DNA from: Methylotuvimicrobium buryatense 5G
Lineage (GTDB): Bacteria > Pseudomonadota > Gammaproteobacteria > Methylococcales > Methylomonadaceae
Assembly: GCF_000341735.1 (NCBI RefSeq)
Contig: NZ_KB455575.1
Coordinates: forward strand, 3,744,286 to 3,808,285
Direction: 5' to 3'
DNA length: 64,000 bases
The position numbers and the translations under genes are program-made. Numbering within the stretch: the stretch's first letter is position 1; the number at the start of each line of letters is the position of its first letter. The notes below the pieces were generated by a model. That model made no database searches, was not told the origin of the DNA, and saw nothing but the letters and a program-made list of their open reading frames with translations. This document shows positions 10,497 to 64,000 of the stretch, piece by piece.

Positions 10497-10775
10497 ATGT
10501 ATCGAATACAGACGCAACCGGCTAGCCCCGGTCCCGCCGAAATCGAGAAGGAAATTCGGCTGTACATGCACCTATATCTCACGCAACGAGTATGGTTCAT
10601 ATCGCAGGCGGTAGTCGAACTGATCGACGCACTGATCGGCCATCCCGACTTCGACGGAACGCCTGAACAGCGCTGCGGTTTCATACGCCTGGCAGGAGTT
10701 TGGCGCTGCATTGCATGGATAGACCGCTGTACGCAGACTCAGTCGTCCGGTTACGAAAATTCGCAAGAGGAATGA
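10497..10775 (+). CDS. 92-aa protein before the haem-degrading factor, unknown
   Basis: ATG 10497 has a GGAGGA ribosome site 5 bp upstream. The stop (10775) overlaps the start region of the haem-degrading factor, so the pair is coupled. It is a soluble helical protein with MHLYLTQRVWFISQAVVELIDALIG and GFIRLAGVWRCIAW segments. It has exactly the length of the 5029 protein and a loosely similar core, hence a possible paralogue. I do not recognise the family. A longer frame starting at 9918 reads through a repeat and a pseudogene and is rejected. Confidence 0.65.
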   Translation: MYRIQTQPASPGPAEIEKEIRLYMHLYLTQRVWFISQAVVELIDALIGHPDFDGTPEQRCGFIRLAGVWRCIAWIDRCTQTQSSGYENSQEE

Positions 10776-10777
10776 TC

Positions 10778-11779
10778 ATGTGCCAAGCAAACGATAGTCG
10801 AACGAACTCGATTTCTCCCGAGGCGTTAAAACGCCGCTGGGACGAACTACGCGAGAACAGGCCGCAATTGCGGATTAGGGAGGCCGCTTCCGCTTTGGAA
10901 GTCAGCGAGGTCGAACTCCTGGCGACCGGCTGCGGAGAAAACGCGACTCGTCTTGAGGCCGATTGGCTCAGTCTGTTGAACGGAATCCAATCCCTTGGCC
11001 CGGTGCTTGCGTTGACACGCAACGATGATGCGGTGCACGAAAAAACCGGTTTTTACCAAAGTATCCGGCTGACCGATACCGGCGGACAGATTCAGGGTGA
11101 AAACATCGACCTGTTTTTGGATTTTCGCCATTGGCATTCTGCTTTCGCCGTGACCGAACAAACTCGTCAGGGAGCTCGCGACAGTCTGCATTTTTTCGAT
11201 CGCGACGGTACTGCCGTGCATAAGATTTACATGACCGAAAGCAGATGTATACCGGCCTACCGGGCCTTGATCGAACGTTACCGCTCCGAAGATCAATCCC
11301 AACGGCAATATGTCGAACCTCCGGTGCTAAACATTGATTCGGTAGCCGCCGTGGCCGGCAACGATAGGCTAGGACAGGCATGGCATGAGCGTTTGATCGC
11401 CTGTGGAGCCGTGCCTTATCAAAGCACCGAGCCGCTGCAAACCGAACGACTGCCGCCCTCGTCGTTTCGGCGTTTCATGGAAAAAGCGTCAGAAATCGGC
11501 GCCGGTTTGACCGTTTTAGTAGGCAATGCCGGCGCGCTGCAGGTTCATTCGGGCCCGATCGAGAAACTGATGATCACCGGCCCCTGGTTCAACGTGCTCG
11601 ACGACGGTTTCAACCTGCATTTGAAGGAAGACGCGTTGGCGGAGCTTCGTCTGGCCGAACGGCGGGCAGGTAATACTTCGGTCAATACTCTGGAGCTTTA
11701 CGATGCCGCCGGGCGTCATATCGCGATGATTCTCTTCGAGCATGCGGATTTGGGCGAATGCTTTACGACGGATGTTTGA
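10778..11779 (+). CDS. hmuS: haem-degrading/transfer factor HmuS-like
   Basis: 333-aa cytosolic protein of the HemS/HmuS/ChuS family, which accepts haem after import and degrades or hands it on. The family's duplicated architecture is visible. The N-terminal repeat contains LRIREAASALEVSEVELLAT, then HEKTGFYQSI and DLFLDFRHWHSAFAV. The C-terminal repeat contains ASEIGAGLTVLVGNAGALQVHSGPI, then WFNVLDDGFNLHLKEDALAE. I chose ATG 10778 because AAGAGG lies 8 bp upstream; ATG 10772 is too close. The stop at 11777-11779 touches a repeat that may help end the transcript. Confidence 0.88.
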   Translation: MCQANDSRTNSISPEALKRRWDELRENRPQLRIREAASALEVSEVELLATGCGENATRLEADWLSLLNGIQSLGPVLALTRNDDAVHEKTGFYQSIRLTDTGGQIQGENIDLFLDFRHWHSAFAVTEQTRQGARDSLHFFDRDGTAVHKIYMTESRCIPAYRALIERYRSEDQSQRQYVEPPVLNIDSVAAVAGNDRLGQAWHERLIACGAVPYQSTEPLQTERLPPSSFRRFMEKASEIGAGLTVLVGNAGALQVHSGPIEKLMITGPWFNVLDDGFNLHLKEDALAELRLAERRAGNTSVNTLELYDAAGRHIAMILFEHADLGECFTTDV

Positions 11780-12125
11780 ACCTGAAAAGAGCAGTTGGCA
11801 TGTAAGTATTCAGTCCCCCTCTTTGAAAAAGAGGGGCTAGGGGAGATTTTTTAAATAAATCCCCCTCAATCCCCCTTTTTCAAAGTGGGATGCCAACAAT
11901 ACGCCTGGATTGCGGTAATTTGCCAACGGGGTCTGAATACTTACGTTGGCATGTGTTGTAGACCGTTCGTGCTGAGCCAAGTCGAAGCATGAAGGGGCTA
12001 CAACACTTTCACCGGCCTGGTGAAGCCTCAAACTATCCATCACCCTTCGACAGGGCTCTCCTGAGCGTAGACGAAGGGGTCAGGGCGAACGGTAGTTTGG
12101 GGCTCTCAACTGCTCTTTTTAGGTT
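11779..12125. repeat. AACCTAAAAAGAGC TIR element, copy A (carries nested MITE)
   Basis: Ends AACCTGAAAAGAGCAGTTG (11779-11797) and CAACTGCTCTTTTTAGGTT (12107-12125), 18 of 19 complementary. The interior has the TGTTGTAGACCGTTCGTGCT repeat with its CTACAACA partner. A 143-bp MITE (11802-11944) has inserted near the left end. Uninterrupted copies are at 29860-30045 and 38014-38121. Confidence 0.75.
11802..11944. repeat. GTAAG-ended MITE with 8-bp TSD, copy 1
   Basis: 143 bp, ends GTAAGTATTCAGTCCCC and GGGGTCTGAATACTTAC (16 of 17 complementary). It is flanked by a perfect direct repeat GTTGGCAT (11794-11801 and 11945-11952). The GTAA terminus plus 8-bp duplication is what IS66-family elements produce, so a related transposase is the likely mobiliser (inference). 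Copy 2 is at 23970-24113. Confidence 0.82.
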
Positions 12126-12219
12126 GAATGTTTATCAACCCAAATTTCGCTATGCCGACCATCGTAAATTCAACAACATAACGGGCAATTCTTTTTGAAA
12201 TAACTAACGAGACAATGAC

Positions 12220-12768
12220 ATGAACGATACCACAGTAGATTTTGAACAAGTCCGTGAGGACTGCAACCGCCTGACCGATTCTTTCGATTCGGTGTTGATG
12301 GCGACCGTAGGTTTGGACGGTAAGCCGGAAGCCAGTTACGCAGCCTATGTGAAATACCAAGGCGATTATTACATCTATATCAGCGAATTGGCGGCTCATA
12401 CCCGCAATCTTTCGGAGAACGACAAGGTCAGTCTGTTGTTCATAGAAGATGAAGATAAAGCATCGCATTTATTCGCGCGGCAACGGGCCACGTTTCAAGG
12501 GCAGGCCGAAGAAATCGCGAGGGATAGCGAACAATTTCATTTTGTCATGGATGCGTTTCAACAGAAATTCGGGCAATTCATCGATATGCTGAAAAAATTG
12601 CAGGACTTCCATTTGTTTCGTATTCATCCGACGAAAGGATCGTTTGTACAAGGTTTTGCCCGCGCTTTCACGATCGAAGGCGAAGCCTTGGACGAATTCC
12701 GCCATGTCAACGATACCGGGCATCGGAACAGCGCACAAAGCAAGCCGGAATCGATGCCGGCGCATTGA
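12220..12768 (+). CDS. HugZ/HutZ-like haem utilisation protein
   Basis: 182-aa member of the pyridoxamine-5'-phosphate-oxidase-like split-barrel fold. The N-terminal strand LMATVGLDGKPEASYAAYVKY and the FHLFRIHPTKGSFVQGFARAF segment are typical of HugZ/HutZ haem-handling proteins. The C-terminal FRHVNDTGHRNS stretch provides the His-rich loop used for haem binding in that family. It probably acts as a cytosolic haem-binding or haem-degrading enzyme alongside HmuS. It lies between the haem-degrading factor and the HmuTUV genes, separated from both by repeats. The start follows AACGAGACAATGAC. Confidence 0.82.
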   Translation: MNDTTVDFEQVREDCNRLTDSFDSVLMATVGLDGKPEASYAAYVKYQGDYYIYISELAAHTRNLSENDKVSLLFIEDEDKASHLFARQRATFQGQAEEIARDSEQFHFVMDAFQQKFGQFIDMLKKLQDFHLFRIHPTKGSFVQGFARAFTIEGEALDEFRHVNDTGHRNSAQSKPESMPAH

Positions 12769-13088
12769 TTTCGGATATCGTGATAAAAACCTCCTGGAGC
12801 TATGAGCTTTGTTGAGGGTTCGGTAACTCGCTTGACAGGACGCCGTAAATACGTCCGTGTAGGCTTGACGGCGGCGACTGATTGCCAAGGATGGCATGAA
12901 TGCGGATTTTGCATTACGCCATGGGTGGCGTGTATTAGGACAATGCAGGAGCAAAAATCTGCAAACGACAAGGATGGCGTGAATGCAGATTTTGCAGGAG
13001 CAAAAATCTGCCCTGCCGCCGACACCTGTCAATCGAGCAACCGAACCCTCTATCAAATAGGGAAGTTATTTAAGACCAAACCTTTCAA
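12767..13088. repeat. GGATTTSGT TIR element, copy 1
   Basis: About 320 bp. Left end GATTTCGGATATCGTGATAAA continues as GAGGGTTCGGTAACTCGCTT. The right end is the inverted partner (AACCGAACCCTC...GGAAGTTATTTAAGACCAAA). The interior contains the GGACGCCGTAAATACGTCC module and two GCCATGGGTGGCG / GATGGCGTGAATGCAGATTT blocks. It starts inside the stop codon of the preceding gene. A 120-codon frame inside it is not a gene. Confidence 0.7.
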
Positions 13089-13103
13089 GGTCAGTAACAC
13101 AAC

Positions 13104-13976
13104 ATGCATAAAAACAAACTATTCAAGATCGTCCGTACCGTCATGTGTTGCGTCGTGTTCGTAACTGCAGGCGCTTCGGCAAGCGAGCCGCGTATCGTTG
13201 CGGTCGGCGGCGCATTGACCGAAATTGTCTATGCACTCGGTGCGGAAAACCTGTTGGCCGGCGTCGACACAACCAGTCAATGGCCTGAAGCTGCGAAAGC
13301 ATTACCGCAGGTAGGCTATATGCGCAATCTTTCGGCAGAAGGCATTTTGTCGCTAATGCCGACTCTATTGTTGACGACGCAAAGTTCGGGGCCGCAAACG
13401 GTTATCGAGCAGATCCGACAAGCCGGTGTGGAAATCAAAACCGTTAACGAAGACAATTCGGCGGACGGCGTGGTGTCCAAAATTCGAGCCGTCGCCGAAT
13501 GGTTGAATGCGACCGAACAGGGCGAGCGCTTGGCGAAACAGGTACAGGAAGATTTCGATCGACTCGATCGATTCACGTCCGGGATTGCGAAACGTCCGAA
13601 AGTATTGTTTGTGCTGGCTATATCGCGCGGCGCTCCGATCGTCTCGGGTGAGGGAACGCCTGCCGATGCGATGATCCGTATCGCCGGCGGCGACAATGCT
13701 TTGAAAGGTTTCGAAGGCTTTAAGCCGGCAAGTAGCGAAGCTTTGATCGAAGCAGCGCCGGATGTGATCGTGTTGACCGATATGGCAGCGAATGCGATCG
13801 GCGGCATCGAGCGCTTGTTCGACATGCCCGGTTTCGGTGCGACACCGGCCGGCAAGCTAGGCAAAGCGGTAACGATGGATGCCCTGTATTTGTTGGGATT
13901 CGGCCCGAGATCCGGTCAAGCCGCGTTGGATTTAGCGACGCGCCTGCGCACCGTCGATACCGTGGCGTCTGAATGA
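13104..13976 (+). CDS. hmuT: haem ABC transporter periplasmic binding protein
   Basis: 290-aa substrate-binding protein of the FepB/BtuF/HmuT type with a signal peptide (KIVRTVMCCVVFVTAGASA-SE). The mature N-terminus EPRIVAVGGALTEIVYALGAENLLAGVDTTSQWP and the PQVGYMRNLSAEGILSLMPTLLL segment are typical of HmuT proteins. It binds haem in the periplasm and delivers it to HmuU. Its stop overlaps the hmuU start by 4 bp. AAGGTC lies upstream. The upstream element (12767-13088) separates it from hugZ, so a promoter may lie in or beside that repeat; no Fur box was seen. Confidence 0.9.
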   Translation: MHKNKLFKIVRTVMCCVVFVTAGASASEPRIVAVGGALTEIVYALGAENLLAGVDTTSQWPEAAKALPQVGYMRNLSAEGILSLMPTLLLTTQSSGPQTVIEQIRQAGVEIKTVNEDNSADGVVSKIRAVAEWLNATEQGERLAKQVQEDFDRLDRFTSGIAKRPKVLFVLAISRGAPIVSGEGTPADAMIRIAGGDNALKGFEGFKPASSEALIEAAPDVIVLTDMAANAIGGIERLFDMPGFGATPAGKLGKAVTMDALYLLGFGPRSGQAALDLATRLRTVDTVASE

Positions 13977-52953: not shown

Positions 52954-53130
52954 GGAACGAGCATGAAATAACTTCATTCTAATATCGCAAGGAAGGAGGA
53001 TTCGATTGACAGATGTCGGCCGCACGCCCCGAAGCCACCTTAGATAATACTGAAACAAAAACAAACCTCATCGTCATTCTTGTCGCATTGGTCGCCATGC
53101 CAATCGACTTATCTTCCCCACGCTAGTGCG

Positions 53131-53264
53131 CACTGCCATTAAGTTAAGCCGTTCGTGGTGAGCCTGTCGAACCATGGACGGCTTAACTTATCGACCCAGG
53201 ATTTTTCCATTCACCCTTCGACAGGCTCAGGGCGAACGGAAAAATCCTTAACTTAATGGCAGTG
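53131..53264. repeat. IS4-like MITE, 134-bp form with 12-bp TSD, inverted copy
   Basis: Perfect ends CACTGCCATTAAGTTAAG and CTTAACTTAATGGCAGTG. Flanked by perfect duplication CACGCTAGTGCG (53119-53130 and 53265-53276). It is inserted near the 3' end of the minus-strand frame 53183-53470. Confidence 0.87.
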
Positions 53265-53470
53265 CACGCTAGTGCGTGAATGTAGGCGAGTTTGCCCTGA
53301 ATTGCGGGTGTGATGAGCTCGTGCGTCAAGTCGAGCAACCCCATGTCCCTATTGATCTCATTCACCACCAAACCGATCGCGCCGAATGAGCAAAGTATCG
53401 CATCCAGGTCATCGGCGTAACCGCCACCGCCGAGCCCAAAATTCTGTGCGGTATCTTGCACGCTCGCCAC
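53183..53470 (-). pseudogene. gene fragment altered by the MITE insertion
   Basis: From GTG 53470 (AAGGGA upstream; the frame is also open before it) the minus strand reads SVQDTAQNFGLGGGGYADDL and DAILCSFGAIGLVVNEINRD through to KLAYIHALA at 53277. The sequence looks protein-like, but I do not recognise it. Without the insertion the frame would end three codons later (WGR-stop, near 53108). The MITE instead adds about 20 unrelated residues. It is probably the tail of an older gene. Confidence 0.35.
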
Positions 53471-53792: not shown

Positions 53793-54734
53793 ATGGCTAC
53801 CTTATTCTGGCTACAGACAGGCGCCTGTGGCGGCGATTCGCTGGCGCTATTGAGTGCTGAATCACCGAGCCTCGAACAAATTTTTTCGGCTCACGGCGTT
53901 GAATTGCTATGGCACCCCTCGTTGTCCAACGCGTCGATGCGCGAGCACGACGCGCTGCTCGAACGCATCGTCAACGGCGAACAAGCGTTGGACATACTTT
54001 GCGTCGAAGGCAGCATCGTCACGGCCCCGCGCGGTACCGGTCTGTACGACAGCTACCGCGGCCGGGCGCGCATGGACATCGCGCGTGAATTGGCAGAGCG
54101 GGCCGGTACGGTCGTCGCGATGGGCACCTGTGCTGCCTACGGTGGCGTTCATGCCGCGGCGCCGAATCCGGGCGATTGTATCGGCCTGCAATACAACCGT
54201 TCGACTCCGGGCGGTCTGTTGCCGCCGGAGTGGCGTTCGCGCGAGGGCCTTCCTGTCGTCAACGTCTCCGGTTGCCCGGCACATCCCCACGCCATGACCC
54301 AGACGCTGGCCTGGCTCGCCGCCGGACTGCCGTTGCCGCTGGACGAACTGAATCGTCCTAAGGCGTTCTTCAATACCGTCGTTCATCAGGGGTGTACGCG
54401 TAACGAGTATCACGAATACGACATCGAAGAAAACGAACCGGGCGGGCGCGCCTGTCTGTTTTTCAATCTCGGCTGCCAAGGGCCGATGACGCAGGCGGTA
54501 TGCAACAGCGATCTGTGGAACGGCACCAGCAGCAAGACTCGCGCCGGTGTGCCTTGTTTCGGTTGCACGTCGCCGAGCTTCCCTCGCGACACCGATTTGT
54601 TCCTGACTGAGAAAATCGGCGACATTCCGTTGCGCTTGCCGCTGGGCGTCGAACGTCCCCGGTACATGGCATACAAGAATCTTGCCCGCGCCGCTGCGCC
54701 GGAACGCGTCAAAGACAAGAAAATGGACGTTTGA
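53793..54734 (+). CDS. [NiFe] hydrogenase small subunit, group-2-like
   Basis: 313-aa electron-transfer subunit. It has no Tat signal peptide, so it is cytosolic, as in sensory or cyanobacterial-type group 2 enzymes. The N-terminus ATLFWLQTGACGGDSLALLS has Cys12 but Asp15 where the proximal [4Fe-4S] motif normally has the second Cys. Cys113 (MGTCAAYGG) and Cys161 (VSGCPAHPH) complete it. Distal and medial cluster ligands are present: H-x-x-C in VVHQGCTRNE, ACLFFNLGC, AVCNSDLWN and GVPCFGCTSP. A single TGAGATG junction links it to the large subunit. It is probably part of an H2 sensor, because a c-di-GMP enzyme follows in the operon. Confidence 0.9.
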   Translation: MATLFWLQTGACGGDSLALLSAESPSLEQIFSAHGVELLWHPSLSNASMREHDALLERIVNGEQALDILCVEGSIVTAPRGTGLYDSYRGRARMDIARELAERAGTVVAMGTCAAYGGVHAAAPNPGDCIGLQYNRSTPGGLLPPEWRSREGLPVVNVSGCPAHPHAMTQTLAWLAAGLPLPLDELNRPKAFFNTVVHQGCTRNEYHEYDIEENEPGGRACLFFNLGCQGPMTQAVCNSDLWNGTSSKTRAGVPCFGCTSPSFPRDTDLFLTEKIGDIPLRLPLGVERPRYMAYKNLARAAAPERVKDKKMDV

Positions 54735-54735
54735 G

Positions 54736-56265
54736 ATGGCTACGATTGAAGTCAACATCAATTTGAACCGCGTCGAGGGAGACCTCGAAATCGCTTTGGT
54801 GCTCGACGACGGCGTCGTCACGGAAGCTCGGACCATCGGCACACTGTATCGCGGTTTCGAGCAGATCATGATGGGCAGGGCGCCCCGCGATGCGTTGGTG
54901 ATCACGCCGCGGGTCTGCGGCATTTGCGGTACGGCTCATCTTTACTCGGCAGTGCTCGCGCTCGAACATGCCTGGCGGACGCCGGTGCCGCCGAATGCGA
55001 CGCGCATCCGCAATCTTTGCCTGATTGCCGAAGGTATACAGAACGATTTACGTCAAACCTTTCTGTTTTTCGCGCCCGATTTTTGCCATCGGCGTTATAG
55101 TCAGCACAGCTGGTTCGACGATGCGGTCGACGCTTTCGAACCGTTTCGCGGTTCGATTTATCTCGAAACGTTGGCTCAAACGCGGAAAGCGGTCGAAATC
55201 GTCGCGCATTTCGGCGGGCAATGGCCGCATTCATCCTATATGATACCCGGCGGCGTGACGACGCCGGCCGATCTGCGCCGGCTGTTGGCCTGCCGCTCGG
55301 TATTGGATGAGATTCAGCGCTGGTACGAACGGCGCGTCATCGGCGCTTCGCTCGACGATTGGCTGGCCTTGGAAGATGCCGAGCGCTATTTCGCTTGGCT
55401 CGATACGCCGGCGCATGCCGGCAGCGCGCTGGGTTTGATGAGCCGCGCGGCCCGCTCGCTCGGCCTACACCTGTGCGCCTCGGGTACGCCGCACATGCTC
55501 AGCTATGGCGCCTGGTGCGATCCCGACCGTTGGTCCGCGCCGCACGACGCGCGTGTGCTGCCGGGCGGTTTCTACGACGGCGGAAGCGGCACGGTCGGGC
55601 CATACGATCAACAACTGATCAATGAGCACGTTCGTCATTCCTGGTTCCGGCCTTATGACGGCGGGCGGCATCCGTGGAACGGCGAAACCGTCCCCGATTT
55701 TCAGCCGAACAGCGACCGCTACACTTGGGCGAAGGCGCCGCGCTACGGCGATAAGGTGGTGCAGACCGGACCGTTGGCCGAGCTGCTAATCGGCGGCGAT
55801 GCACTGATTGCGTCGCTGCACCAAGCCGAAGGCGGCAGCGCTTGGCTTCGGCAATTCGCGCGGGTCAGGCGAATCGCCGTCGAATTGAAGCAAGCGCGAC
55901 TGATACTCGACGAGTTAACAGCGAATCTACACGAGCCGCATATTTTGAATCCGGCCAAAACACAGGAAACCGACGGAGAAGGATACGGTCTGATCATGGC
56001 CGCGCGCGGGGCGCTCGGGCACTGGCTCAAAATCAAAGACGGTGTCATCGAAAAATATCAAATCATCACGCCAACCGCGTGGAACGCCTCTCCTAGAGAC
56101 AGCGGAGGATTGCCGGGGCATTGGGAGCAAAGCCTAGTCGGACTGAGCGTTCAGGATCCGGACGATCCCGTAGAAATCGGGCATGTCATTCGCTCCCACG
56201 ATCCGTGCCTAGTGTGCACGGTACATGTGCTGAACACCGGCACGAGGCTACGTTTCGGGCCATGA
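54736..56265 (+). CDS. [NiFe] hydrogenase large subunit, group-2-like
   Basis: 509-aa catalytic subunit. The nickel-site motifs are complete: RVCGICGTAHL (Cys61, Cys64) and DPCLVCTVH (Cys491, Cys494, His497). The body has NLNRVEGDLEIALVLDDG and LGLHLCASGTPHMLSYGAW. Twelve residues (VLNTGTRLRFGP) follow His497, a short but present C-terminal extension of the kind removed by a maturation protease. Classical H2 sensors (HupV/HoxC) usually lack it. ATG 54736 directly follows the small-subunit stop. The last 4 bp overlap the protease start. Confidence 0.92.
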   Translation: MATIEVNINLNRVEGDLEIALVLDDGVVTEARTIGTLYRGFEQIMMGRAPRDALVITPRVCGICGTAHLYSAVLALEHAWRTPVPPNATRIRNLCLIAEGIQNDLRQTFLFFAPDFCHRRYSQHSWFDDAVDAFEPFRGSIYLETLAQTRKAVEIVAHFGGQWPHSSYMIPGGVTTPADLRRLLACRSVLDEIQRWYERRVIGASLDDWLALEDAERYFAWLDTPAHAGSALGLMSRAARSLGLHLCASGTPHMLSYGAWCDPDRWSAPHDARVLPGGFYDGGSGTVGPYDQQLINEHVRHSWFRPYDGGRHPWNGETVPDFQPNSDRYTWAKAPRYGDKVVQTGPLAELLIGGDALIASLHQAEGGSAWLRQFARVRRIAVELKQARLILDELTANLHEPHILNPAKTQETDGEGYGLIMAARGALGHWLKIKDGVIEKYQIITPTAWNASPRDSGGLPGHWEQSLVGLSVQDPDDPVEIGHVIRSHDPCLVCTVHVLNTGTRLRFGP

Positions 56266-56729
56266 GTAATCGGCAATTATGTCATATCGTTTGCTTCGGT
56301 AATCCGCTCCACGGTGATGACGGTTTCGGTCCGGCGGTTTACCAACGGCTAGCGGCGCTGCCGCTGCCGGATAACGTGCGCGTGTTCGACGCCGGAACGC
56401 CCGGTCTGGCGGCATTAGCGCTATTTCAAGGATGCCATGAGGTGATGATCGTCGACGCCGTCGCATCGGGCGGCATACCAGGGAAATTAAGCCGATTATC
56501 GCCGAATGTTGTTACGGCCGAAATCACGTTACCGGGCCACGGCATCGGCGTAGGCTATTTGTTAAAGGCCGTTGCCGCGTTGCCGGACTGCCCACGCATC
56601 GAGATCATCGCAGCGGAAATCCTTGGAGCGGCACCGTTCCGTCCGGGCTTGTCAAAACCGGTGCGCCAAGCTGTCGACGATGCCTTCGTTCTACTGGAAA
56701 AATATGCCGAGCAAGTTTCCCGTCAATGA
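56262..56729 (+). CDS. hydrogenase maturation endopeptidase
   Basis: 155-aa HyaD/HupD-type protease that trims the large-subunit C-terminus after nickel insertion. CFGNPLHGDDGFGPAVYQRL has the Glu/Asp metal ligand position (Asp in GNPLHGDDG). VFDAGTPGLAAL and VMIVDAVASGG give the second Asp, and PGHGIGVGYLLKAV carries the His. ATG 56262 overlaps the large-subunit stop (ATGA). A longer frame from 56121 is a shadow. Its 3' end overlaps the start of the signalling gene by 26 bp. Confidence 0.9.
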   Translation: MSNRQLCHIVCFGNPLHGDDGFGPAVYQRLAALPLPDNVRVFDAGTPGLAALALFQGCHEVMIVDAVASGGIPGKLSRLSPNVVTAEITLPGHGIGVGYLLKAVAALPDCPRIEIIAAEILGAAPFRPGLSKPVRQAVDDAFVLLEKYAEQVSRQ

Positions 56730-59373
56730 ATCGCACCTAAATGAGGAACTGACGCGTTTGCGGGTCGAAGTCGAAGCGCTTCGAATCGCCAACGCGGCGC
56801 TCGAGCAACAATTGTCGATCGACGCCAAGCAGGCCGATTCGATGCTGCGGGTGCTCGAAATACGTAGTAACGAGCTAAAGGAAGCCAACCTACATCAGCT
56901 GAATCAAAGTAATTTCATCCGTCGCGTCATGGATTCGACCGGCGCGATGATGATCGTGCTGGGACCTGATGGGCATATACGCCAAGTCAATCGGCGTTGC
57001 GCGCAGGAGTTGTCCGGAACCGATTCGATTCCGGACAATCGCGTGCTGGACGACTGGTTGCATCCCGACGAACGACAAGCGCTTGTCGCACAAGCGATCG
57101 GTTTGCCGTGGCCCGTTTTTTCTCCGCTGTTCGAAGTCGTGCGGCGTTCGGGTTCCTATGCCGCTGAGCACCGTCTGGGAAGCCGCGACGGAAGCTATCG
57201 CCATTATTGGTTTGAGGCGAGTCTGCAACACAACCCTCAAGGCAAAGAAGAAGGCGCCGTCATTTGCGCGAGCGATATCACGCGGCTCAAACAACAACAA
57301 GAGCGATTGAGCCGAAGCGAAAAACGCCTGAAAGAGGCGCAAAAAATCGCCCGCCTGGGGCATTGGGAAATGGATTTGACGTGCGACAAACTCACTTGGT
57401 CGGAGGAAGTGTGTATTATTTTCGAGCTCGATTCGGCTTCGATACCCCGTAACTATGCGGACTTTCTCGAACTCGTCTATCCAGCCGACCGGGCCGCAGT
57501 CGACCGGGCTTTCACATCCGCCCTAAGCACGCATGGTTCTTACGACATCGAACATCGTCTGTTAGCGGCCGGCGGACAAATTAAGTGGATACACGAACGG
57601 TGCGTCATCTACTATGACGATGCCGGGCGGGCTTTACGGTTGGTCGGAACGATTCAGGATATCACCGAGCAACGCTTGGCCGAAGAGCAGTTGCGTCTTG
57701 CGGCGAGCGTCTTCGACAATAGCCTGAATGGCATTCTAATCACCGATGCGAATACGCGCATCGTCAAGGTCAACCGCATGTTCAGCGAAGTCATGGGCTA
57801 TTCGTCCGACGAGGTGTTGGGACAAAAACCGAGCTTGCTGAAATCCGAGCACCACGATAAGCAATTTTATCGCAGTCTGTGGGCCGCACTCGAACGGGAC
57901 GGCAAATGGCAGGGTGAGATTTGGGACCGGCGTAAGAACGGCGAACTGATACCACTGTGGCAAAATATATCGTCGGTGCGCGACGCCATCGGACGCGTGA
58001 CGCACTATATCAGCGTCTTTTACGATTTAACCCAACAAAAGCAAAGCGCGAAACATATCTACCATCTGGCCTATTACGATGCCTTGACCGAACTACCGAA
58101 CCGGCAGTTATTCAACGAGCGCTGCGAGCATGCACTGGAGAGGGCGAATCGCGACTACCATCCGCTGGCAGTTTTGTTTCTTGATCTGGACCGGTTCAAG
58201 CACGTCAACGACAGTCTCGGGCATCCGGCCGGAGACGAGCTTTTGCGCATGGTCGCACACGCAATCAAGAGTTCTTTGCGCCAAGACGATACGGTCGCGC
58301 GCTTGGGTGGCGACGAATTCATCATTTTGCTCGAAAATACCGGGAGCCGCTCCGATGTCGAACAGGTCGCCCTCAAAATCATTGCGCACCTCTCTAGACC
58401 TTTCATCGTTCAAGGCCATAAGCTGGAGATCGGCACGTCGATAGGCATCAGTTGTTATCCTGAGGATGGCAAAGACACCATGTCCTTAATCAAACACGCC
58501 GATCTTGCGATGTATCGAGCCAAGGAAAAAGGACGCGGTAATTTTCAGTTTTACGAAACGTATCTAACTACGCGCGCGAAAGAACGTCTTTTTCTCGAAA
58601 GTGAGCTGCGCGACGCACTGGAACGCCAGGAATTCCATCTTCATTACCAACCGCAATTCGCCTTATCCGGCGGCGAATTGATCGGAGCCGAGGCTTTATT
58701 GCGCTGGAATCATCACGAGCACGGCCTGATCGCGCCCGACAAGTTCATTCCGATCGCCGAGGAATCGGGGCTGATCGTCGCGATCGGCGAATGGGTGCTA
58801 TCGGCCGCATGCAGTCAGGCCAAGGCATGGCTCGACGCCGGTTACGCATTCAAACAGGTCGCGGTCAATCTGTCCGGCGCGCAGATCGAACGCAGCGATA
58901 TTTTGGCAACGGTCGGCAACGTCCTTGCAACAACGGGACTGCCTCCCCGGCACCTAGAGCTCGAAATCACCGAAACCTATATCATGCGTCAAGCGAAACA
59001 GAACGTTCGTATCATGGAAGAGCTTCGCGCATTGGGCGTGAGCCTGGCGATCGATGATTTCGGAACCGGGCAGTCGTCGCTCAGTTATTTGAAACGCCTG
59101 CCGGTCGACAAGTTGAAAATCGACCGTTCATTCGTGATGGATATTCCGCAAGATAGCAATGATATGGCCATTACCCGAGCGATTCTCGCACTCGGACACA
59201 GTTTGAAACTAACCGTTTTGGCCGAGGGTGTCGAAACCGCAGAACAAGCGGCTTTTCTTAACGAATTAAAATGCGACGAAGTGCAGGGCTATTATTACAG
59301 CCGCCCGCTGGACGCCGAAAGCTTCCGGAAGCTATTGGCCAAGCAAAAGTTCGATGCAGATCTTTTTGATTGA
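56704..59373 (+). CDS. PAS-GGDEF-EAL cyclic di-GMP enzyme of the hydrogenase operon
   Basis: 889-aa cytosolic protein. A coiled coil (~10-65) precedes three PAS domains (~70-195, 215-330 and 333-450, each with a PAC segment). The diguanylate cyclase domain has intact RLGGDEFIILLEN (GGDEF at ~534) and an RQDD inhibitory site five residues before it. The phosphodiesterase domain has intact EALLRW (~663), DDFGTGQSSLSYL and KLKIDRSFV. Both activities are therefore possible. ATG 56704 (GGAA upstream) lies inside the end of the protease gene, so all four genes are translationally linked. PAS domains also couple HupUV/HoxBC sensors to their kinases, so H2 state may control c-di-GMP here. Confidence 0.92.
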   Translation: MPSKFPVNESHLNEELTRLRVEVEALRIANAALEQQLSIDAKQADSMLRVLEIRSNELKEANLHQLNQSNFIRRVMDSTGAMMIVLGPDGHIRQVNRRCAQELSGTDSIPDNRVLDDWLHPDERQALVAQAIGLPWPVFSPLFEVVRRSGSYAAEHRLGSRDGSYRHYWFEASLQHNPQGKEEGAVICASDITRLKQQQERLSRSEKRLKEAQKIARLGHWEMDLTCDKLTWSEEVCIIFELDSASIPRNYADFLELVYPADRAAVDRAFTSALSTHGSYDIEHRLLAAGGQIKWIHERCVIYYDDAGRALRLVGTIQDITEQRLAEEQLRLAASVFDNSLNGILITDANTRIVKVNRMFSEVMGYSSDEVLGQKPSLLKSEHHDKQFYRSLWAALERDGKWQGEIWDRRKNGELIPLWQNISSVRDAIGRVTHYISVFYDLTQQKQSAKHIYHLAYYDALTELPNRQLFNERCEHALERANRDYHPLAVLFLDLDRFKHVNDSLGHPAGDELLRMVAHAIKSSLRQDDTVARLGGDEFIILLENTGSRSDVEQVALKIIAHLSRPFIVQGHKLEIGTSIGISCYPEDGKDTMSLIKHADLAMYRAKEKGRGNFQFYETYLTTRAKERLFLESELRDALERQEFHLHYQPQFALSGGELIGAEALLRWNHHEHGLIAPDKFIPIAEESGLIVAIGEWVLSAACSQAKAWLDAGYAFKQVAVNLSGAQIERSDILATVGNVLATTGLPPRHLELEITETYIMRQAKQNVRIMEELRALGVSLAIDDFGTGQSSLSYLKRLPVDKLKIDRSFVMDIPQDSNDMAITRAILALGHSLKLTVLAEGVETAEQAAFLNELKCDEVQGYYYSRPLDAESFRKLLAKQKFDADLFD

Positions 59374-60184: not shown

Positions 60185-61165
60185 ATGGACCGCTTTGAAC
60201 GAATCTACCAATTACACACCATCCTATCCGGTCGCCGAACGCCGGTTTCCAATGCCCAATTACAGGAAAAACTCGAATGCAGCGAAGCGACCGTAAAGCG
60301 GTTGCTAACACTCATGCGCGACCACTTCGACGCGCCGATCGCCTACGACCGTAAACGCAACGGTTATTATTACGACACCGAAGCCGGCGAACACCCTTAC
60401 GAACTGCCCGGCTTATGGTTCAATGCCGAGGAATTATGGGGCTTGCTGACCTGCCATACCATGCTGCGCAAAATATCGCCGGGCCTGTTCGGCGAGCAAA
60501 TCGCCCAACTGCAAAACCGGATCGAAAAACTTCTCGCGTTAGATCGAAGCAGCGCCGAACGCAAACTGGAATGCATTAAAATCGTCCCGATCGCCTCGCG
60601 ACAAAAAGTTCGAAATCCATGGTTCGCCAAAATCGCCGGCTCGCTATTCGATAATAAACGCCTCGATTTGGTCTACGACGCGCGTAGCGACGGACAAATA
60701 ACCACACGCAGCGTATCCCCGCAAAATCTAGTTTACTACCGGGACAACTGGTACCTTGACGCGTGGTGTCACTTTAGAAGAGAACTGCGCACCTTCGCAC
60801 TGGAACGCATTAAAACCGCCGCCCGCCAAGAAATACCCTCCCAAAACGTCGATCGACAGCAACTCGAAGATTATTTCAGTTCCTCCTACGGCATCTTCTC
60901 CGGCAAAGCCGAACACACCGCAAAACTGAAATTCACGCCCGAACGCGCCCGCTGGGTCGCCGACGAACAATGGCATCCGAAACAAACCGGCCGCTGGCAC
61001 GAAGACGGCAGTTACGAATTGAGCATACCCTTCGGCGATCACCGCGAGCTGTTGATGGACATCCTCCGCAATGGCGCCGAAGTCGAAATTTTGGAACCTG
61101 CCTTTTTACGCGAAGCCGTGATCGAGCAAATTCAAAAAATGGCGAAAATTTATCAAAAAGAATAA
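60185..61165 (+). CDS. WYL-domain transcription regulator
   Basis: 326 aa. Winged helix N-terminus (DRFERIYQLHTILSGRRTPVSNAQLQEKLECSEATVKRLLTLMRDHF), then a WYL sensing domain around residues ~150-235 (VSPQNLVYYRDNWYLDAWCHFRRELRTFALERI), then a WCX C-terminal extension (AKLKFTPERARWVADEQWHPKQT, ... GDHRELLMDILRNGAEVEILEP). Such YafY-type regulators often neighbour CRISPR-Cas and other defence loci, where they bind nucleic-acid ligands (family knowledge). Here it is the first gene before cas3. Confidence 0.9.
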   Translation: MDRFERIYQLHTILSGRRTPVSNAQLQEKLECSEATVKRLLTLMRDHFDAPIAYDRKRNGYYYDTEAGEHPYELPGLWFNAEELWGLLTCHTMLRKISPGLFGEQIAQLQNRIEKLLALDRSSAERKLECIKIVPIASRQKVRNPWFAKIAGSLFDNKRLDLVYDARSDGQITTRSVSPQNLVYYRDNWYLDAWCHFRRELRTFALERIKTAARQEIPSQNVDRQQLEDYFSSSYGIFSGKAEHTAKLKFTPERARWVADEQWHPKQTGRWHEDGSYELSIPFGDHRELLMDILRNGAEVEILEPAFLREAVIEQIQKMAKIYQKE

Positions 61166-61955: not shown

Positions 61956-62069
61956 ATGACCGAAACAGCCGGATATTACAGATACTGGGGCAAAGCCAAA
62001 CCCGAAGGCGAGTCGGGCCCTGCCTATCATTTGCTGCCTTATCATTGTTTGGATGTGGCTTACTTATGA
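61956..62069 (+). pseudogene. N-terminal relic of a Cas3 HD domain
   Basis: ATG 61956 opens 37 codons reading [20 protein letters not shown] then LPYHCLDVA, then YL-stop. YWGKA...[13 protein letters not shown] is the conserved start of Cas3 (the HD domain, with the H of YHCLDVA as the first metal-binding His region). It breaks off where AVG... would follow and collides, with a 4-bp overlap, with the start of a second, different Cas3. I read it as the stump of an older cas3. Confidence 0.7.
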
Positions 62070-64000
62070 TTCAATTCAATCCAAAGGAAAGCGGTTGGGC
62101 CAAAACTAACCAAGACGGCTCGCCTGGCTTGCCGATTTTTGAGCATTGTTGCCATGTAGGCTGGGTTGCGTTGGAGTTGGTAAAGCAAAGCCGAAAAATT
62201 CCCGATGCCGACTTAACACCAATTGCGATAGCGATCATTGCCGCCATTCATGATATTGGAAAATGGTCGCCAGGGTTTCTCGTTAAATGTCCTCTGTGGT
62301 TAATTCGAGAAAATTTAGTTTTATTTGCTGCTGACCATGCTTGGGAAGCGCAACAAGAGAAGCGGCATGAGGCACACAGTCAGGATTCAATTCAGCTGTT
62401 GCTTCAAAAGCGTGGAGTGAAGCAATCGGTAGCACAAGCGTGGGCAATGATTGCTGGCGCGCATCACGGAAAAATGCATGTTCCTGAAAAATACGGCAAT
62501 TGTGATGTTACTCCTTTCATAGATGAGTGGCATTTCCAACGACAACAAATTATTTTCGAATTAGAAGCTGAGCTTGGTAGCGAGATACCCACTTATGAAG
62601 TAAATAAGCGTGATGCGATTGTTCCGTGGTTAATGGGATTAACCACTATTGCCGATTGGATTGGATCAGATGAAACATATTTTCCGGTAAATAAAGGCCT
62701 GGATACTGGCAACGGCAAAATAGCGGCAAAGCTTGCTGTCGAAAGTATAGGTTTAGCCAATCCACGCATACGAAAGGGGCTGAAGTTTAAAGATATTTTT
62801 GGCTTCATTCCAAACGAATTACAAGAAAAAGCGTTACTTGCCATTAAGGAACCCGGTATTTACGTCATAGAAGCGCCGATGGGTTTGGGGAAAACTGAAG
62901 CGGCATTGGCTTGCACTTACGAGCTTTTAAAAACCGGAAAAGCGTCGGGATTGTATTTTGCATTGCCTACGCAATTAACATCCAACCGGATTCATTTGCG
63001 GGTAAATGATTTCATTAACGCAATTTCTGAAACACCCGAAAATGCAAGACTGGCTCATGCTAATGCTTGGCTGGAGACGGATTATTACCAGCCAAGGGCA
63101 GTACAAACCATATTTAAAAAATTCGATGGTGATGCAACTGTCAGCCGTGACTGGTTTGCCTCCGCTAAAAGGGCATTATTGGCTAATTTTGGCGTGGGTA
63201 CAATCGATCAGGCGTTAATGTCAATTGTTGCAGTGAAACATTTTTTCGTCAGGCGTTTTGCATTGTCCGGCAAAGTCATCATCATTGACGAAGTCCACAG
63301 TTACGATTATTTCACAGGAACTTTGGTTAAGTGCTTATGCGATGAGTTATTAAAACTCGGCTGTACGATCATAATTTTGTCCGCAACGTTACTGCCAAAA
63401 GTTAGAAATAAATTAATCGGTATTGACGGTAATTTAGTAAATGTAGATACCTATCCTTTAATTACCGGAAAAACGATAAATGGCGACGTTATAAAGCCGC
63501 AGTTTGCAGTAGCACCCGAAAGGCCAGCGGTTCGTAAAATCTTTAAAAACTCGAATCACTTAATCGAAGATGCCGTCAAGGCGGCTCAAATGGGGGCCAG
63601 AGTCTTGTGGGTTTGTAATACGGTTAATCTCGCACAGCAAATTTTTGGGCAATTACCAAGCGATAGTGGTTTTGAATCCGGGCTATTGCATTCGCGCTAC
63701 CCGCATTTTATCCGGCAAGAGAGGGAAGCGTATTGGATGAAAAGGTTGGGTAAGACTGGTGCGCAACAAGGCGGTTGTATTTTGGTTTCTACACAAATTG
63801 TCGAACAAAGCGTCGATATTGACGCCGATATTCTTATCTCGGAATTGGCGCCAATGGATATGCTGTTGCAAAGGATTGGACGCTTATGGAGGCATATGGA
63901 TGTTAGATCTGCACGAATTAGGCCTGTTTCTGAGCCACAAGTATGGATTGTCGAGGAAGAAAAAACACTCGCTGAATTGGAACGAGAAGGTAGCGAACGC
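62066..64000 (+). CDS. cas3: Cas3 helicase-nuclease, type I CRISPR-Cas (runs off window)
   Basis: 645 codons without a stop. The N-terminus [30 protein letters not shown] begins an HD nuclease domain, with [16 protein letters not shown] (HD pair) and [10 protein letters not shown]. The helicase part has Walker [18 protein letters not shown], motif [14 protein letters not shown] (DEVH), motif [11 protein letters not shown] and motif [14 protein letters not shown]. It degrades target DNA after Cascade recognition. The C-terminal region and the rest of the cas genes and array must lie to the right. The subtype cannot be fixed from this part alone (type I; I-E or a relative is plausible). Confidence 0.92.

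Follow-up and report, generated by a model that had tools for sequence, protein, structure and literature searches.

Four genes that lie head to tail on the forward strand of Methylotuvimicrobium buryatense 5G encode a [NiFe]-hydrogenase, its maturation protease and a PAS-GGDEF-EAL protein, here called REG, and most likely specify an H2-responsive hydrogenase-REG complex. The operon occupies positions 53793–59373 of the window, by which we mean the whole 64,000-nucleotide stretch analyzed (contig NZ_KB455575.1, positions 3,744,286 to 3,808,285). On motif, tree and synteny it is a member of HydDB [NiFe] group 2c, so the kind of system is already known and the window adds a member. What we propose beyond this is that the hydrogenase docks on the N-terminal coil and first PAS domain of REG, since a profile of this module ranks the known partner kinase HoxJ highly, the module co-occurs with the hydrogenase and outputs are exchanged behind it. 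The features of the operon, all on the forward strand, are as follows.

53793–54734, forward: [NiFe]-hydrogenase small subunit (313 amino acids; N terminus MATLFWLQTG; Oxidored_q6 and NiFe_hyd_SSU_C)
54736–56265, forward: [NiFe]-hydrogenase large subunit (509 amino acids; PF00374, E = 1.6e-84; L1 RVCGIC; L2 SHDPCLVCTVH)
56227–56262, forward: codons of the C-terminal extension, 12 residues past the L2 histidine (expected protease cleavage; from the alignment)
56262–56729, forward: HycI/HupD-type maturation protease (155 amino acids; HycI match; 4-base ATGA overlap with the large subunit)
56704–59373, forward: REG, coil-PAS1-PAS2-PAS3-GGDEF-EAL (889 amino acids; 26-base overlap with the protease gene)
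56737–57300, forward: coil + PAS1 module, REG amino acids 12–199 (candidate hydrogenase-coupling module, related to the HoxJ N terminus)
57391–57654, forward: PAS2 (PAS_3 fold; domain match; missing in the Rieske-bearing subclade B)
57712–58041, forward: PAS3 (domain match; nearest solved relatives are the flavin adenine dinucleotide (FAD) redox PAS domains of MmoS and NifL)
58069–58539, forward: GGDEF domain (I-site RQDD 58279–58290; GGDEF 58306–58320)
58603–59307, forward: EAL domain (every residue checked is present in the window)

Class of the hydrogenase and conservation of its gene order

Pfam and NCBIfam matches are consistent with the identity of each of the four genes. An earlier, sequence-only reading of this DNA, which proposed an H2 sensor acting on cyclic di-GMP (c-di-GMP), had described the genes as overlapping or abutting, and so they do: the large-subunit ATG lies one base past the small-subunit stop, and overlaps of 4 and 26 bases follow. 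(The large-subunit reference sequence was started at 54733 and has one extra leading residue, 510 versus 509.) The same reading had noted the absence of a twin-arginine translocation (Tat) signal and of a membrane partner or electron carrier. By inspection, there is no Tat motif in the small subunit, whose N terminus is MATLFWLQTGACGGD, and no membrane subunit, cytochrome or ferredoxin gene was seen adjoining the operon in the window.

HydDB, as the sequence-only reading had suggested, lists group 2c as 'Diguanylate cyclase-linked (putative)' with 'Undetermined role' and adds that it 'May sense H2 and regulate processes through cyclic di-GMP production' (PMC5037454; this and the other papers cited here are represented by excerpts). 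The group has the L2 consensus SFDxCLVCTVH and is found in methylotrophs and sulfate reducers (PMC4853749, crediting Greening et al.), and 2c genes of Methylobacter have been described as cytosolic and without known energy conservation (FEMS paper, PMC12810054). According to the excerpts of PMC5037454 and PMC4853749, the window shares with this group the cytosolic group 2 character, the L2 motif, a linked cyclase/phosphodiesterase gene and a methylotroph host, and we found no difference that would exclude it. A tree of 53 large subunits unites the 25 2c rows in a single clade (100/99), with the window in subclade A (7 rows, 100/100); the 2a-like rows (6 rows, 100/100) and the HoxC, or 2b, rows (9 rows, 100/99) are separate from it. 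This tree, rooted at its midpoint, includes 25 of the 35 2c genomes, and some of its branches, such as those of L185 and L113, are long; the 2a and 2b labels come from gene neighbors, the named pHG1 HoxC (L125) and Protein Data Bank (PDB) matches to the 2a enzyme Huc, not from HydDB references, and the name 2c rests on motif and gene neighbors. The window's L2 matches the consensus save for H in place of F, likewise in Thiomargarita (SHDaCLVCTVH). Since the 2a-like rows carry SYDSCLVCTVH or SFDSCLVCTVH, L2 alone cannot tell 2c from 2a-like enzymes, and the assignment draws also on the place in the tree outside 2a and 2b and on the linked GGDEF-EAL gene. Of the features of group 2b, the window has the Ile/Phe gas channel, but it lies outside the HoxC clade, has a C-terminal extension and possesses an incomplete set of Cys ligands. 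Its nearest relative among named records is Methylomicrobium sp. wino1, with a large subunit 97% identical.

The linkage to a GGDEF/EAL gene, on whose conservation the sequence-only reading had staked its proposal, held up: small subunit, large subunit, protease and REG follow one another in this order in 35/35 genomes, as far as the contigs extend. These are the genomes examined whose large subunit is at least 53.8% identical to that of the window, 32 of the host family (the window's included) plus loci L113, L124 and L185. Four are incomplete: L110 is without the small subunit, L097 and L109 are without the REG end (contig ends), and L103 has a two-frame REG. In L103 (4907–7521, reverse strand, genome G403), the two frames overlap, reflecting a frameshift or an assembly error. 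Within the host family, 37 of the 237 genomes match the large subunit at E ≤ 1e-60; five of these matches are of other types (G383, G441, G517, G562, G570), and the remaining 32 are 2c, each with protease and REG adjoining the large subunit in the same order. Our sample of the larger phylum covers 398 genomes with matches listed only at E ≤ 1e-104, such that other intermediates may be missed. Sulfate reducers are named in print as 2c hosts, but no recognizable sulfate-reducer name is among the 19 loci of the scan for named relatives. L113 belongs to another family than the host, and the L124 operon is carried by Ideonella dechloratans, a betaproteobacterium, on a plasmid of 709 kb, where REG is annotated as 'bifunctional diguanylate cyclase/phosphodiesterase'. 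Since the large subunit of the plasmid copy falls in subclade A with the window (100/100), the operon was apparently transferred as a unit. A c-type cytochrome gene lies downstream of the plasmid operon. Beside 2a-like large subunits, no REG was found in six rows (L112, L118–L120, L192, L193). HoxA and HoxJ lie within the stretch read in 7/9 HoxC rows; the HoxJ of L116 is ~10 kb away (L131), and none was seen in the stretch read for L009.

Could the operon instead encode a conventional uptake hydrogenase of the cytoplasm, recycling H2 from fermentation, with the GGDEF-EAL gene merely sharing its promoter? The related group 2a enzymes are classed as uptake hydrogenases (PMC5037454), and the cluster ligands described below are nearer those of Huc than those of HoxB. 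However, because REG is linked in 35/35 genomes and no electron-accepting partner gene adjoins the operon, we consider this very unlikely; the gas channel is also of the HoxC kind, and the coil + PAS1 module tracks the 2c hydrogenase across the 237 family genomes.

The coil + PAS1 module and its exchangeable outputs

A profile, A1, was built from 22 of the 33 coil + PAS1 modules. At E ≤ 1e-12, it matches 33 of the 237 family genomes, namely all 32 with the 2c operon plus G537, in which the module gene begins at a contig edge; the other 204 have none. We also searched A1 in 19 of the 23 genomes whose matched loci include a full-length one of the HoxC type (G064, G350, G273 and G366 were left out); for 7 of them, HoxC was confirmed in a longer stretch, and for the others it was taken from the match alone. 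HoxJ, called by a blastp score of at least 336 bits against the C. necator protein, is the top match in 16/19 of these genomes and the second in G045. The 17 HoxJ matches start within the coil (profile positions 16–30), and most other matches start later. With hhalign, 2c PAS1 and the HoxJ PAS align at E = 5.8e-18, compared with 5.5e-11 and 1.8e-12 for each against PAS3 as a control, and the two coils align at E = 4.5e-7. On this forward test, the coil and PAS1 are the likely docking module of REG for the hydrogenase; the reverse test, described below, is weak. In the HoxBC system, signaling requires continuous H2 oxidation and a complex with HoxJ (PMC10073562). HoxBC-HoxJ and HupUV-HupT share with the window the lack of a Tat signal, the Ile/Phe channel and a partner with an N-terminal coil + PAS, whereas the window differs in its GGDEF-EAL rather than kinase output, its large-subunit C-terminal extension and protease gene, its separate clade, and D15 and K248 where HoxB has Cys. 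As a separate observation, genome G084 has a second HoxJ-like kinase (C6:61864, L148), which lies a few kb from another large-subunit match (C6:58060).

In the tree, 2c has a neighboring clade whose large subunits are 43–47% identical to that of the window and whose operons have the same first genes with other outputs. The partner is coil-PAS..-GGDEF in L186 and L187, coil-PAS-HisKA-HATPase-receiver in L188–L191 and coil-PAS-hybrid kinase-Hpt in L196. A protease gene is present in L186 and L187 by blastp and in L188 by a weak Pfam match under the cut-off; L196 has a 150-amino-acid open reading frame (ORF) at this position that is protease-like by eye, and blastp, the sole method applied to L189–L191, found none there. 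The N-terminal modules of these sister regulators are 37–44% identical across different outputs, over 171–178 amino acids, and the PAS2 of L186 matches its own PAS1 module over 39 amino acids only.

A 2c-type module is also found on an unlinked 1003-amino-acid hybrid kinase in two Methylomonas-type genomes (G477 and G476), both of which have the 2c operon:

L198:5731–8742 and L200:5414–8425, reverse: orphan hybrid histidine kinase with a 2c-type coil + PAS module

No hydrogenase gene lies near these kinases within the 17.0 and 9.7 kb inspected. The module of the G477 kinase is identical to that of the window at 73/187 positions and, in a tree of 45 modules, falls within subclade A (100/98). 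In this tree, which holds 21 of the 33 2c modules, is midpoint-rooted and has long branches, the modules of the diguanylate cyclases and kinases group like their hydrogenases. In the excerpts of PMC5037454 and PMC4853749, we found no mention of output swaps, a coupling module, a Rieske variant or an orphan kinase; as far as our survey of the open-licence literature shows, the coil + PAS module, the output swaps, the Rieske branch described below and the orphan kinase are new here.

Signal and output

At the two gas-channel positions, presumably HoxC I62 and F110, Ile/Phe is found in the 2c rows with the exception of L185 (24/24) and in the HoxC rows (9/9), Ile/Leu in the 2a-like rows (6/6), Val/Leu in the group 1 row and Ile/Tyr or Ile/Leu in five distant rows. 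The channel residues I64 and L112 of Huc, which were mutated in a published study (PMC10017518), agree with this mapping. HoxC-type hydrogenases have a narrow gas channel and three [4Fe-4S] clusters (PMC5665086).

In the window's small subunit, the fourth ligand positions are D15 for the proximal cluster (53835–53837) and K248 for the medial cluster (54534–54536), and the distal ligand is H198. The proximal position is D/E in 32/32 2c and sister rows, N in the 2a-like rows (6/6) and C in HoxB (8/8); the medial position is K in 2c, sister and 2a-like rows and C in HoxB; and the distal ligand is H throughout, save Q in the 2a-like rows. Huc, a high-affinity 2a enzyme, is the best PDB match for both subunits (7UTD, 7UUS, 7UUR) and resembles the window in its non-Cys residues at the proximal (Asn) and medial (Lys) positions, although the window has Phe for Leu in the channel, distal His for Gln, proximal Asp for Asn, REG, and a clade separate from the 2a-like rows. 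As Huc contains three [3Fe-4S] clusters, a type of generally higher potential (PMC10017518), the Asp/Glu and Lys ligands suggest, by analogy, higher-potential clusters in 2c. The window enzyme combines a HoxC-like channel with a partly Huc-like relay, a pairing that is also new here and that may confer high H2 affinity.

These ligands raise a special case of the proposed complex, in which the hydrogenase is chiefly an electron donor to a cofactor of REG and REG reads redox state, with H2 as one input. The cofactor would be a Rieske cluster in one subclade and perhaps a PAS3 flavin in the window. In favor of such a relay, the non-Cys proximal Asp/Glu and medial Lys extend to all 2c and sister rows, and an N-terminal CxH..CxxH motif occurs in 20/20 REGs of subclade B (L090–L109), with Pfam Rieske matches above cut-off in 5/5 of those tried and in L185. 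The motif is, however, found in 0/14 of the others (the window, its subclade and L113). L185, whose REG (10616–13603) has a Rieske [2Fe-2S] domain fused N-terminally to GGDEF-EAL beside a 2c hydrogenase, is the first branch of the 2c clade (the other 24 rows 99/97), on a long branch; it follows that the Rieske domain is either old and was lost in the window's line or was gained twice (two changes). Among the matches listed from the open-licence literature, no paper joins Rieske, GGDEF and hydrogenase in this sense; PMC12727194 reports EAL/GGDEF/PAS and NifU-Rieske gene clusters near hydrogenases, and its excerpt does not mention this fusion. Within their own branch, the Rieske relatives favor electrons as the signal.

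For the window, the candidate cofactor site of such a relay is PAS3. Its best PDB matches are MmoS (3EWK, 2.6e-25) and NifL (2GJ3, 2e-12), both FAD redox sensors, and Aer was matched too. Nevertheless, of the 33 REGs, 30 have Asp, 2 have Asn and 1 has Leu at the position of the flavin-binding Asn of MmoS (N164), and MmoS H132 and R195 align with Pro and Phe in the window (residue equivalences from the excerpt of PMC9668731). As these substitutions make FAD binding doubtful, we set FAD in PAS3 aside despite the FAD-PAS relatives. PAS1 has only weak PDB matches (best 7e-4) and PAS2 matches eight sensor PAS domains (best 5.9e-14), and neither points to a cofactor. On balance, an electron relay of this kind is possible but, in our judgment, somewhat improbable.

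As to output, the three-PAS architecture with intact GGDEF, I-site and EAL motifs in the sequence-only reading is borne out: TIGR00229 delineates three PAS stretches in REG, and GGDEF, EAL and PAS matches are present. The aligned REGs, 33 of 34 with the two-frame L103 omitted and L185 outside the alignment, have coil + PAS1, PAS3, GGDEF and EAL in common, and PAS2 is absent from subclade B. The I-site R and D are invariant (33/33), and GGDEF is intact in 31/33, with SGDEF in L090 and L091. The EAL residues that we take to be catalytic (E, N, E, DD, K, E, Q) are kept in all rows reaching them (33 or 32). Both domains of the window look intact and are predicted to be functional. Since two relatives have SGDEF while the EAL residues are invariant, we lean slightly to phosphodiesterase as the indispensable output; against this, two sister operons carry GGDEF only.

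Several observations weigh against the complex as we propose it. The HoxJ proteins of G074 and G157 are short (334 and 356 amino acids) and align to HoxJ from residue 160 or 162 on, with no PAS found by Pfam in the one checked (L194); because 2/19 HoxJ proteins are without the module, it is not obligatory for H2 signaling. In the reverse test, a profile of five HoxJ N termini ranks REG first in only 3/20 2c genomes (G415, G506 and G486), and generic PAS proteins outscore REG in the remaining 17, the window's included (the 21st genome searched, G570, is of the sister type). The idea that REG contacts the hydrogenase through a PAS domain, put forward in the sequence-only reading, is therefore upheld by the module shared with HoxJ and qualified by these exceptions and the weak reverse test. 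The sister modules are tied weakly to the 2c module (hhalign E = 2.3e-9 for the six of L186–L191; A1 E = 4e-4 to 9e-3 for four regulators, and no match under E = 0.5 for L187, L189 and L196). In the hydrogenase itself, the gas-channel Phe is replaced by Met in L185, as in the seven sister rows (Ile/Met), and the cluster ligands of 2c are partly Huc-like and not HoxB-like. The final HoxB extension, part of a C-terminal tail that we considered as a possible docking peptide, is missing from 2c small subunits, which share the HoxB segment as far as the 'AAP.R' stretch (as, in part, do the 2a-like rows). The 12-residue large-subunit extension is kept in 2c and is found in none of the six HoxC rows of the alignment, and HoxC has been described as without it (PMC10073562). 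These hydrogenase residues would also suit an enzyme that passes electrons onward. In REG, the EAL motif reads EVL in 3/33, one row has Phe at Arg-667 and two rows depart from the Thr of ExTE, and the five top NCBIfam models are phosphodiesterases, all below cut-offs.

Proposed mechanism and genomic surroundings

Given the 12-residue extension, the adjacent HycI gene and hypD elsewhere in the genome, the protease would process the large subunit and a Hyp system encoded elsewhere would insert the [NiFe] site. The cytoplasmic hydrogenase would then bind and slowly oxidize H2, with an Ile/Phe gas channel that, as in HoxC, should exclude O2. Once the hydrogenase is docked on the coil and PAS1, H2 turnover, by electrons or by conformational change, would shift the coil-PAS1 dimer; this shift would act through PAS2 and PAS3 on the GGDEF/EAL balance, such that c-di-GMP goes up or down with H2. 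As far as its sequence checks go, the sensor interpretation of the earlier reading is supported. It is also conceivable that the hydrogenase reports another signal to REG, such as O2, CO or Ni supply, as PAS domains often serve as sensors of redox state or gases, maturation depends on Hyp proteins (hypD is present) and assembly on Ni. We regard this as the most improbable of the explanations considered: the L1 and L2 metal-site motifs are intact in every aligned 2c row reaching them, and the closest tested analogue, HoxBC, reports H2 (PMC10073562).

A broader proposal, which we hold tentatively although it could well be right, is that group 2 hydrogenases form a modular H2-signaling family, with three parts taken jointly. 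One coil + PAS module would be inherited with the hydrogenase and fitted with exchangeable outputs, be it GGDEF-EAL, GGDEF, a histidine kinase or a hybrid kinase; duplication of the module would let a single 2c hydrogenase of some methanotrophs act on c-di-GMP and on a phosphorelay alike; and in the Methylobacter type, electrons from H2 would enter the fused Rieske domain, with the window's branch working without Rieske or with another cofactor. If so, the Methylobacter-type Rieske REG would be a direct transducer from H2 electrons to c-di-GMP.

Hydrogenase classification has for about a decade carried a link from H2 to c-di-GMP as a label (HydDB, 2016). The coil + PAS module, the output swaps and the Rieske relatives turn this label into a small, defined test and sharpen several questions: which residues dock, whether the signal is electrons or shape, and whether H2 guides methanotrophs at oxic-anoxic interfaces toward an attached or a free-living state. 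The module may also serve as a natural plug-in for H2-responsive kinases or cyclases.

The host genome comprises 5.07 Mb in two contigs. Its only second PF00374 site, at C1:1476 kb, belongs to a hydrogenase set that resembles HoxEFUYH, a name inferred from sequence since its NCBIfam matches are all below cut-offs; this hydrogenase may be the source of the H2, which may also come from outside. The hypD gene, the sole hyp gene sought, is at C1:1141 kb. Downstream of the operon lie a WYL-domain regulator (60185–61165) and then cas3 (62045–64000; best PADLOC model Cas3e), which may mark the beginning of a type I CRISPR-Cas locus. On the upstream side are an HbpS-like gene and 840 bp in which no ORF of 100 amino acids is listed. 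Nested inverted repeats are present upstream at 53123–53272, with 26-nt arms (92%) 98 nt apart and inner arms of 20–23 nt, and are possibly a small mobile element or a repetitive extragenic palindromic (REP)-like array.

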